From Elusimicrobia bacterium RIFOXYA2_FULL_39_19 (lineage in GTDB: Bacteria > Elusimicrobiota > Endomicrobiia > CG1-02-37-114 > XYA2-FULL-39-19), in NCBI GenBank assembly GCA_001800285.1, contig MGVC01000048.1, forward strand, positions 1 to 52,742: 52,742 nucleotides of DNA. The letters run 5' to 3'. Every line of letters begins with the position of its first letter. Within the stretch, counting starts at the first letter, position 1. Positions 39,269 to 41,720 of this stretch are shown here, in pieces. The notes beneath the pieces were generated by a model that did not search any database, had not been told where the DNA came from, and worked only from the letters and a program-made list of their open reading frames with translations. The position numbers were made by a program, and so were the translations under genes.

Positions 39269-40399
39269 TTAACGGTTGTTTCCTTTGTATTTATCGAAGA
39301 ATTTTTCTTTTTGGGAAAGGAAGTTATCTTCGTCTATTGAAGTGCTAATTAAATTGATTAATTTTAGCATAAAAAACAAATTGTGTAAAGTAAGTAACCG
39401 AAGAGAAAGCAGTTCTCCTGACCTGAAAAGATGGTGGATAAATGATCTGGAATATTCAGTACAGACCGGACAAGAACAACCCTCATCAAGAGGGCCAAAA
39501 TCATTGCTATACTGTGCATTTCTAATGTTTACTTTTCCTGAAAAGGTAAGAGCCTGGCCATTTCTTCCGTTTCTGCTGGGAAGCACACAGTCAAAAACGT
39601 CAATACCGTTTTCAATATAAGCCCAAAGCTCCTCCGGCGTACCAACTCCCATGGCATAACGGGGTTTATCTTCCGGAAGCAGTGGCGCCGTATTTACTAC
39701 TATCTCATTTGTTATGTCTGCCGGTTCACCTACGGCCAAGCCACCCAGGGCATAACCATCAAAATCAATTTCAATGGTTCGCAGTGCGCTTTCTTTTCTT
39801 AAATCAAGATAAGTACTGCCTTGAACAATGCCGAACAAGAACTGTTTTTTGTTTACACGTTCAGTTTTTGATTCTACAAACTGTTTTTTACAGCGTTTTG
39901 CCCAGTCTATAGTCATTTCCATTGAATTTTTTGCGTATTCGTAAGTTGACGGGTAGGGAACACATTCATCAAAACACATCATAATATCTGACCCCAGTTC
40001 CATTTGCAAATCCATCACGCTTTCAGGAGTAAATAAATGTGAACTGCCGTCAATATGCGACTGGAATTTTACGCCTTCTTTTGTTATTTTTCTAAGTGTT
40101 GAAAGGCTGTAAACCTGAAATCCGCCCGAATCTGTAAGAATGCTTCTGTCCCAATTAATATATTTATGTAATCCGCCGGCAGAATTTATAAGTTTTGCAC
40201 CCGGCCGAAGATAAAGGTGATATGCATTTGAAACAAAAAGATGAGTACCTATTTTTTTTAATTCTTCGCTTGATACTGTTTTTACAGTCCCTTGTGTAGC
40301 TACGGGCATAAATACGGGTGTATTTACTTCACCATGCGCTGTACGCATAATGCCTTTTCTGGCCCGGGTTTCTTTTGATTTCTTTATTATCTCAAACAT
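39269..40399 (-). CDS. tgt: Queuine tRNA-ribosyltransferase
   Basis: Tgt swaps guanine-34 for preQ1 in tRNAs with GUN anticodons. The 376-residue protein contains LTDSGGFQVYSL (the first active-site aspartate), GVGTPEELW, VFDCVLPSRNGRNG (the nucleophilic aspartate) and a zinc site (CSCPVC...H). The open frame begins six bases earlier at a TTG (40405), but AGGA at 40406-40409 touches that codon and lies six bases from this ATG, so 40399 is the better start. QueA and QueH, the next two enzymes of queuosine formation, lie upstream in the same run. Confidence 0.96.
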   Translation of the reverse strand: MFEIIKKSKETRARKGIMRTAHGEVNTPVFMPVATQGTVKTVSSEELKKIGTHLFVSNAYHLYLRPGAKLINSAGGLHKYINWDRSILTDSGGFQVYSLSTLRKITKEGVKFQSHIDGSSHLFTPESVMDLQMELGSDIMMCFDECVPYPSTYEYAKNSMEMTIDWAKRCKKQFVESKTERVNKKQFLFGIVQGSTYLDLRKESALRTIEIDFDGYALGGLAVGEPADITNEIVVNTAPLLPEDKPRYAMGVGTPEELWAYIENGIDVFDCVLPSRNGRNGQALTFSGKVNIRNAQYSNDFGPLDEGCSCPVCTEYSRSFIHHLFRSGELLSLRLLTLHNLFFMLKLINLISTSIDEDNFLSQKEKFFDKYKGNNR

Positions 40400-40420
40400 G
40401 TTCAATCCTTTTAAAATAAT

Positions 40421-40675
40421 TTTAGTGATTTGTCGTTAGTTGTTAAGTGATTAGTGAAGCACTATAGCATCTGCTTCATCTTCGGCAAAAACCGCCGAAG
40501 AACATCCCCTGTCGCTAACCGCTTCTGCAATATTCGCGGCTATTTGCCGCATTGCATAAGCAGCTTTAGGGGATACCCTACAACGCATTCATCCCCGAGT
40601 TTACACTCGGGGCATTCTGCGAAAGCGGGTAAAAAATTTTACTAACCACATAATCACATAAACACTTAATCATTA
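40421..40675 (+). repeat. Structured intergenic element, MITE-like
   Basis: This non-coding block between queA and tgt is more GC-rich than its surroundings and full of palindromes: CTTCGGC/GCCGAAG (40480-40486, 40494-40500), ATCCCCT/AGGGGAT (40504-40510, 40568-40574) enclosing GCTT.TGCAAT/ATTGCA.AAGC and GCGGC/GCCGC, then CCCCGAGT-TTAC-ACTCGGGG (40593-40612). AT-rich flanks carry related, roughly inverted TTAAGTGATTA-type words. It resembles a non-autonomous mobile or REP-like element, but with one copy in view that is inference. Strand is arbitrary. Confidence 0.5.
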
Positions 40676-40679
40676 TTTT

Positions 40680-41720
40680 TTAAATAATCAGCATCGCATC
40701 GCCATAAGAATAAAATCTGTAGTTATTTTTTATGGCCTCATTATATGCGTTAAATATTTTATCCCTTCCAGCTAAAGCACAAACCAATGCAAGGGGGGTA
40801 GACTGTGGAGTATGGAAATTCGTGAGCATGATATCAATACATTTAAATTTGTAACCAGGCGTAATAAAAAGCCCTGTTTCTCCGGAATCATGGTTAATTT
40901 CGCCATTATTATCAGCTAAGGTTTCTAAAGTCCTTACCGATGTAGTGCCTACCGCAATTATTCTTTTGTTTAAACGTTTTGCAATATTTATTATGTCTGC
41001 CTGGCTTTGATCAACAAAATAGCTTTCCGGCAGCATTTTATGTTCAGTTATATCCTTTGTGCTTATAGGTTTGAAGGTACCCCAGCCCACATGCAATACA
41101 ATTTCTGCAATATTAACACCTTTATTTTTTGCTTCATTCAATAGTTCATCTGTAAAATGTAAGCCCGCTGTAGGCGCTGCAATTGAACCGGTATTTGACG
41201 CATACACAGTTTGATAGCGCTCAAAATCTTTCTTTTTGAATTCAGTACAATCAGTATTTCTTTTAATGTAAGGCGGGGTAGGCATTTCTCCGAATTGTTT
41301 AATAATATTTTTCACGCTTATACCATCATCAAATTCCAGTACAAATTCCCCGGAAACATCTTTCCCGGATACTATTGCGGATGCCTTATTATCTCCAAAA
41401 ATAATTCTGCTTTTTTGTATTTTATCTCTTGTAAGGACAGACCATCTGGAGCGGGCTAATTCCCTGACAAACAGCAGCTCTACTTTACCGCCGGTGGCTT
41501 TTTTTGCCGCAACCCTGGCAGGGAACACCCTGGTTTTATTTATTACCAGACAATCGCCGGAAGAAAAATAACTGCAGATGTTTTTAAAGATATCATGTTT
41601 TAGTGTATTGTTTTTTCTGTCTAAAATCAGGAGTTTGCTTTCATCTCTTTTTTCCTGCGGGATTTGGGCTATGCGTTCTGCCGGAAGGTTAAAACTGTAG
41701 TCTTCAATAGGAAGCTTCAT
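40680..41720 (-). CDS. queA: S-adenosylmethionine:tRNA ribosyltransferase-isomerase
   Basis: QueA transfers the ribosyl part of SAM to preQ1-modified tRNA, giving epoxyqueuosine. The 346-residue protein is full length. It has YSFNLPAERIAQIP and KRDESKLLILDR at the start, then VINKTRVFPAR, GSIAAPTAGLHFT and LHVGWGTFKPI, and ends with LTNFHTPQSTPL and FYSYGDAMLI, all conserved in QueA. It uses SAM, so metK (21343) feeds it. Four bases separate it from the SpoIID-like gene upstream. Confidence 0.96.
   Translation of the reverse strand: MKLPIEDYSFNLPAERIAQIPQEKRDESKLLILDRKNNTLKHDIFKNICSYFSSGDCLVINKTRVFPARVAAKKATGGKVELLFVRELARSRWSVLTRDKIQKSRIIFGDNKASAIVSGKDVSGEFVLEFDDGISVKNIIKQFGEMPTPPYIKRNTDCTEFKKKDFERYQTVYASNTGSIAAPTAGLHFTDELLNEAKNKGVNIAEIVLHVGWGTFKPISTKDITEHKMLPESYFVDQSQADIINIAKRLNKRIIAVGTTSVRTLETLADNNGEINHDSGETGLFITPGYKFKCIDIMLTNFHTPQSTPLALVCALAGRDKIFNAYNEAIKNNYRFYSYGDAMLII

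Follow-up and report, generated by a model that had tools for sequence, protein, structure and literature searches.

A four-hairpin, apparently mobile element nested in an AT-rich hairpin repeat between queA and tgt of an Elusimicrobiota genome

RESULTS

A structured insert between queA and tgt

The window analyzed here is the whole of a 52,742-nt stretch of DNA (contig MGVC01000048.1) from Elusimicrobia bacterium RIFOXYA2_FULL_39_19. Within it, the frames of tgt and queA are separated by 274 nt (Table 1), in a gene run whose other gaps between frames range from a few bases to about 50. A preliminary description of this DNA considered a structured insert to be out of place at this junction. 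The block folds far better than its shuffled versions (z of -8.8 on the minus strand and -8.5 on the plus strand, with none of 200 shuffles as good). At least three hairpins and flanking inverted AT-rich words had been described. The structured GC-rich block stands, with four hairpins at about 40454-40628. The inverted words are also present (TTAAGTGATTA at 40443-40453 versus TAAACACTTAA at 40659-40669, 91%, and a 16-nt pair, 81%) but are not the ends of the element; instead, they form both arms of a second repeat family that hosts the insertion. The locus is indeed a compound palindrome, with a four-hairpin element nested within an AT-rich hairpin repeat. The minus strand of the element reads CCGC...GCTTCAC with TTAC to its left, so that the insertion can be written TTAC^CCGC...GCTTCAC^ (borders marked by ^).

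Table 1. Features of the queA-tgt junction (positions in the window)
Feature	Position	Strand	Basis and remarks
tgt	39269..40405	-	Frame; name from the preliminary description; match in 28/30 genomes searched, own included
queA	40680..41720	-	Frame; name from the preliminary description
Whole insert: AT-rich hairpin repeat with GC-rich element nested inside	40406..40679	n/a	Frames, junction lengths in relatives, rebuilt flanks
Mobile element, 175 nt, four hairpins	40454..40628	+	Copy comparison; ends ambiguous by at most 2 nt (to 40456-40630)
Hairpin H1 (TGAAGCA/TGCTTCA)	40455..40478	+	Fold and copies; extra ATGGGC..GCCCAT hairpin within H1 in other copies
Hairpin H2 (TCTTCGGC/GCCGAAGA)	40479..40501	+	Fold and inverted-repeat search
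Hairpin H3 = 69-nt core	40505..40573	+	Core model R2 match G000:C48:40505-40573; also solo in other genomes of the phylum
Hairpin H4, outer stem ACCC...GGGT, inner hairpin CCCCGAGT/ACTCGGGG	40575..40630	+	Fold and inverted repeats
Left arm, AT-rich host hairpin	40421..40453	n/a	8-base words such as GTGATTA; TTA(G) at apex end
Apex (TAAAAAATTTTACTAA) and right arm, AT-rich host hairpin	40630..40672	n/a	Inverted words, motif count, rebuilt flanks

Copies in the genome and junctions in relatives

When the genome to which the window belongs (G000; 3.09 Mb in 86 contigs) was searched at the DNA level for the block, 56 matches were obtained; part of the GC-rich core is covered by 34 of them, 5 of which are located at contig ends. 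Besides the window's own, there are 13 long copies with 95-100% identity. Both ends were present in 24 of 30 fetched copies, which run for 176-197 nt from GTGAAGC to GGGTAA. Variation among the copies involves entire hairpins: some have and others lack, near the left end, a 14-nt piece that includes an ATGGGC..GCCCAT hairpin, and two copies (L022 and L024) have a different hairpin in place of the upper part of the central one.

The distance between the protein matches of queA and tgt is 277 nt in G000 but only 18 and 9 nt in G001 and G002, the other two family members searched, which identifies a lineage-specific insertion and not a conserved cis-regulatory RNA. Among the 28 queA-tgt loci compared, the junction of G003 has 228 nt of other sequence, eight loci have 664-776 nt separating the tgt and queA matches, and 16 have no queA match within the fetched stretch. 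At one locus (L194), G339 has a composite insert that includes a solo core, whereas G338, a genome of the same genus, lacks the insert and has 33 nt between the flanking matches; for another core (L199), the G338 counterpart looks like a decayed remnant. A non-autonomous mobile element had been one of the readings offered for this block, with a single copy conserved at orthologous junctions named as the sign of a regulatory RNA. What we observe are 34 places matching the core, short junctions in both family relatives and another composite insert that a relative from the same genus lacks; the mobility of the element is well supported.

Ends of the element and target duplication

Ends were read in 46 copies, those outside G000 being hand-picked among the model matches described below. 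Four copies (L061, L048, L077 and L057) are unreadable at one end, and one (L106) has A at both ends but AAA instead of TAA. The G-type copies all have the end bases GTG(A/G)A...GTAA (26/26) and the A-type copies ATGAA...ATAA (15/15). Hence, the purine R (G or A) is identical at both ends in 41/41 readable copies, and four more, read further out (L061, L077, L089 and L091), agree on R. Most copies outside G000 end in ATGAAG...GGATAA rather than GTGAAG...GGGTAA. In G000, the end dinucleotide is always GT (24/24), an A precedes GTGAAG in 21/24 copies and follows GTAA in 20/24, and the base following TTAC in the rebuilt site is T in 21/24.

A search for target duplications at the copy borders, as had been proposed, found none: the mean longest flank repeat was 2.88 nt, versus 2.91 nt for mispaired flanks (24 full copies). 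RTAA is fixed at the right end (TTAY on the minus strand) in all 41 readable copies with no duplication longer than the control, although a duplication of the 2 bp RT fits equally well. This last point bears on whether the element could be a MITE, with degenerate ends, of a conventional DDE transposon, since the presence of RT at each end may reflect a 2-bp duplication; such a duplication would explain the identical end bases as well as an IS200/IS605-like reading does. The hallmarks of MITEs are terminal inverted repeats of 15-30 bp and target-site duplication. No terminal inverted repeats are visible in the plus-strand ends, GTGAAGCAC and GCGGGTAA; a 2-bp duplication is compatible with the data, but the invariant GT of G000 follows the subfamily of the element rather than the site. 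We consider a MITE origin improbable, and the label MITE-like, taken strictly, is not supported for this element.

The TTAC/TTAT bases lengthen the stem of H4 by pairing with an internal complement. We infer that this complement acts as a guide, such that the choice of target is linked to pairing with the element's own stem. Solo cores, by contrast with the compound element, lack these ends and may move differently.

Strand placement

IS200/IS605-family elements target the lagging-strand template (in the passages of PMC6006769 dealing with them), and therefore the TTAC strand would be expected on the G-rich strand. Using the GC skew of 18-20 kb (for the window copy, of the entire window) as a stand-in for replication direction, we found this placement for 19/25 G000 copies (P = 0.015), with four loci nearly skewless and two pairs sharing one stretch. 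Outside G000, it was seen in 8 of 17 hand-picked copies, giving 27/42 overall (P = 0.088). The strand bias of the TTAC side in G000 is suggestive only.

The AT-rich host repeat and nesting

When the flanks of the window copy are joined (...GTTAAGTGATTAG^TAAAAAATTTTACTAACCACATAATC...), they form an AT-rich hairpin cut at its apex, AG^TAAA (TTTAC^T on the other strand). Intact repeats of such form occur elsewhere, for example, GTGATTAG TAAAATCTTTTACTAACGACG (L332), and the AT-rich motif GTGATTANGTGRTTAGTAAA has 152 matches in the genome with up to three mismatches, versus 7 for a reversed control. The joined flanks of the nested copies L001, L002 and L003 resemble the intact hairpin by eye, most clearly for the window copy, and L005 and L010 have, also by eye, the left half of the host repeat in common. 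Two or more AT-rich words were present at the ends of 4/25 copies versus 14/5595 control windows, an enrichment that is overstated because the control windows include coding DNA.

In the genome, the AT-rich repeat is present in very large numbers; it consists of 8-base words (GTGATTA), forms hairpins and occurs as a five-unit tandem array at G000:C49:34623-35349 (L111). It flanks one gene (L265) of the 23S rRNA intervening-sequence protein family PF05635; at a second S23/four-helix-bundle gene (L266), whose flanks are partly N, no such repeat was seen by eye. A gene of this type is a candidate owner of the AT-rich repeat.

Nesting is seen within the cores as well. In G034 and G208, another hairpin lies inside the apical loop of several cores, and in L079 and L244 the loop holds a further core (by eye). 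One internal junction is occupied by a different repeat in L077, L079, L086 and L252 (by eye). Insertion may prefer hairpin loops, a tendency based on a small number of sites.

Relatives in the phylum

Two covariance models were used, one of the whole element (R1) and one of the 69-nt core (R2). R1 had matches at an E value of ≤0.01 in 8 of 95 genomes of the class, strong ones besides G000 being G034, G037, G048 (of the same class as G000) and G024; a full compound copy was present outside the class in G205 (L224). At an E value of ≤0.001, R2 matched 15 of 340 genomes from the phylum, and in 13 of these the E value was below 1e-12. A recount of cores in 12 genomes gave 35 in G000, 33 in G048, 25 in G034, 14 each in G200 and G339, 12 in G205, 11 in G037, 7 in G208, 6 in G338, 3 each in G024 and G210 and 1 in G001. 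An exact pattern scan of named species genomes found nine stretches in three genomes, all Elusimicrobia or Endomicrobiales. The relatives seen so far, by model among the 340 genomes and by exact pattern among the named species genomes, thus belong to one little-studied phylum, Elusimicrobiota. Viral contigs had no exact match to the core pattern, leaving carriage by phages without support, and no description of the element was found in the open-license papers searched.

Some arrangements were noted in passing. Solo cores occur in tandem at spacings of about 75-151 nt (L197, L200, L216 and L232). In two genomes (G208 and G210), a portion of a terminator-like hairpin recurs ahead of the core. 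Three solo cores of G000 (L186, L191 and L192) have extended flanks in common, in which GTAGTAG precedes the core and either GTAGTAG or GTAATAG follows it; they represent another composite form.

Conservation of the core hairpin and the genes around it

The preliminary description suggested examining covariation across copies, and compensatory change in the core hairpin proved to be strong. In 28 cores, 93.9% of cells were paired, versus 32-51% in slid structures, and 101 cells were changed on both sides, versus 29.3 in shuffles, none of 500 of which reached 101; 19 of 23 pairs were affected. Such change is what would be expected of a structured RNA or a transcription or processing element selected at gene ends, with its copy number reflecting selection. 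Two other observations point the same way. The upstream frame ends on the element's own TGA in 5/24 full G000 copies (excluding L017, where a 180-amino-acid frame ending on this TGA is antisense to a longer frame), and three solo cores, their stem retained, begin at the 3' ends of tRNA-Ser genes. These three cores (L185:977-1042, L187:1009-1074 and L190:1048-1113, all in G000) start on the last four bases of the tRNA, TCCG, with which their bottom stem pairs (L187 has a compensated change); the tRNA anticodons are GCT, CGA and TGA.

Selection as an RNA would, however, be hard to reconcile with the absence of the element from the two short orthologous queA-tgt junctions and with a core present in only 15 of 340 genomes. 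The core stems on the plus strand have 41 G-T versus 61 A-C combinations (P = 0.06; first 106 of 110 aligned matches, 103 distinct); there is no excess of G-U and therefore no sign of selection as a plus-strand RNA, though this lean toward A-C would suit the minus strand. Flanking genes lie in both orientations relative to the element (++ 55, -- 40, +- 19 and -+ 18 of 155 entries, a few of which overlap; 13 have no clear neighbors and 10 lie inside frames, 4 of these examined by translation). No Rfam family reached threshold in the window element or at the cores of 11 scanned loci. We regard an RNA selected at gene ends as quite unlikely, and the suggestion of a structured RNA or processing site specific to the queA-tgt junction is not supported, given the empty junctions and the lack of a plus-strand G-U excess. 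It is possible that the core hairpin acts as a DNA hairpin or as a minus-strand RNA.

Elsewhere in the 11 loci, three tRNAs and one cobalamin riboswitch were matched, the latter at L235:808-942 (G210), in the same stretch as a solo core.

Among the copies in frame within genes, one (L016) lies inside a 663-amino-acid frame without a Pfam match, one (L226) lies in ribBA, where the two matched parts are separated by 24 residues more than in a solved RibBA, and the others are in a histidine kinase (L229) and a TPR protein (L230). A coding origin of the element was considered and rejected: one plus-strand frame is open through most but not all G000 copies, and open frames this long (about 60 codons) are, by estimate, not rare. 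The remaining role of this frame is as a route for in-frame inserts.

Search for a mobilizing enzyme

The element could also be a true REP/BIME-type element moved by the REP-associated Y1 transposase (RAYT) of the same genome. Like the REPs described in passages of PMC3733652 and PMC6006769, it consists of small hairpins that are mostly intergenic and sometimes in frame in genes. G000 has 6 Y1_Tnp matches, the five other genomes searched all have some (33 in total), and GTAG precedes the core hairpin on the minus strand of G000 copies (GTTGTAGGGTATCCCC). Against this, a scan of all 39 Y1_Tnp loci with both models, including flanks of about 1.5 kb, found no copy of the element closely beside a gene. 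At one G034 locus, a shortened core was matched weakly at a distance of 1.45 kb from the gene (17-19 bits, E value of 0.009-0.03, whereas true copies score at least 38 bits), another locus had a 16-bit match (E value of 0.19), and the remaining loci had nothing of note. A short BLAST search of the element against the six Y1 loci of G000 gave no match. Three of these loci (L034, L035 and L036) have Y1 genes flanked by GTAG-type hairpins that by eye are unlike the window element, and are probably ordinary REP-transposase units. By inspection, the GTAG/CGTC foot is not conserved across genomes, GTAG being present before H3 on the minus strand of G000 copies but not retained in those of other genomes. 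A RAYT-driven origin appears unlikely, and of the earlier term REP-like we retain size, hairpins and location but neither the foot nor the proximity to Y1 genes.

No parent element with the ends described above was found among the loci of Y1_Tnp, the transposase type searched. As a separate approach, an autonomous parent was sought beside partial copies; none was seen at L109 and L028, where the frames were read and none was transposase-like, or at L110 and L108, inspected as sequence only.

DISCUSSION

The element described here occurs as dispersed copies with precise ends, a fixed RTAA and the same R at both ends, with no detectable target duplication and with a short queA-tgt junction in relatives. 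How it moves has to be deduced from these features. The explanation that we prefer, with a probability somewhat better than even, is that of a non-autonomous four-hairpin mobile element, probably moved as single-stranded DNA by a trans-acting transposase into the apex of an older AT-rich repeat. An AT-rich hairpin repeat would first have settled between queA and tgt, and the four-hairpin element would then have entered the apex of this hairpin, probably as a single strand. The transposase would act in trans and may be of the HUH/Y1 (IS200/IS605-like) kind; the target would be chosen with the help of pairing to the element's own stem, and hairpin loops would be preferred as insertion sites. At the queA-tgt junction, the element is probably a passenger between two genes, with no specific function.

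The element resembles REPs, MITEs and IS200/IS605 derivatives, although it lacks the defining features tested for REPs (conserved foot and RAYT neighbor) and for MITEs (terminal repeats). Its insertion signature is closest to that of IS200/IS605 (IS608, ISDra2 and transposase-less derivatives), except that a transposase is missing and that one feature of the ends differs. Shared traits are hairpins near both ends without terminal inverted repeats; apparent insertion 3' to TTAC (or TTAT), with a similar tetranucleotide at the far end (TCAC/TCAT here); pairing of the target bases within the end stem of the element; and, as a suggestive point limited to G000, location of the TTAC strand mostly on the G-rich strand. 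For IS608, passages of PMC5934647 describe insertion on the 3' side of TTAC, with TTAC retained in the left flank, cleavage sites TTAC (CL) and TCAA (CR), guide sequences that pair with the cleavage sites and target, and a preference for C after TTAC. As these two IS608 sites, so described, differ in their last base, the identical last base at the two sites of our element is not an IS608 trait, and the base after TTAC is mostly T here rather than C. Other differences from the IS200/IS605 family are that no tnpA was found with the ends of the element (39 Y1_Tnp loci), that the element has four hairpins in 175 nt and that the apex of a hairpin repeat is a recurrent target.

Other known palindromes are similar by description. 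REP, BIME and REPIN sequences with a RAYT are likewise dispersed intergenic hairpins, some in frame in genes and some paired; our element is longer and modular, does not conserve the GTAG/CGTC foot and is not close to the Y1 genes examined. ERIC and similar enterobacterial repeats are intergenic palindromes of 100-200 nt without coding capacity. Compared by description, the element shares these properties with ERIC and differs in belonging to another phylum and in its prominent module exchange and nesting. Rickettsia palindromic elements, as portrayed in passages of PMC10969869 and PMC3733652, are palindromic, about 150 bp long (PMC10969869) and in part located in frame in protein genes, as are our copies in ribBA, a histidine kinase and two others. 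This likeness is one of description; the bacteria are unrelated, and most of our copies lie outside genes. Integron attC sites were a further identity considered and provisionally set aside.

A broader interpretation, which we advance tentatively and consider possible rather than probable, is that there exists a phylum-wide set of palindromes that move as single strands, choose their targets by pairing and use the loops of older palindromes as landing sites. Such palindromes would grow by nesting (core in core, foreign hairpin in core, compound element in AT-rich hairpin) while the folded form is kept, and would sometimes become parts of proteins. Tolerated protein insertions are suggested by copies that lie in frame in genes, ribBA among them.

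In summary, the end, target and host loop of a small bacterial palindrome can all be read from one genome. For Elusimicrobiota genomes, the model of the 69-nt core offers a means of flagging repeats and spurious short frames during annotation. A preference for landing in hairpin loops, if real, would make it possible to test how mosaic palindromes arise in bacterial intergenic DNA.
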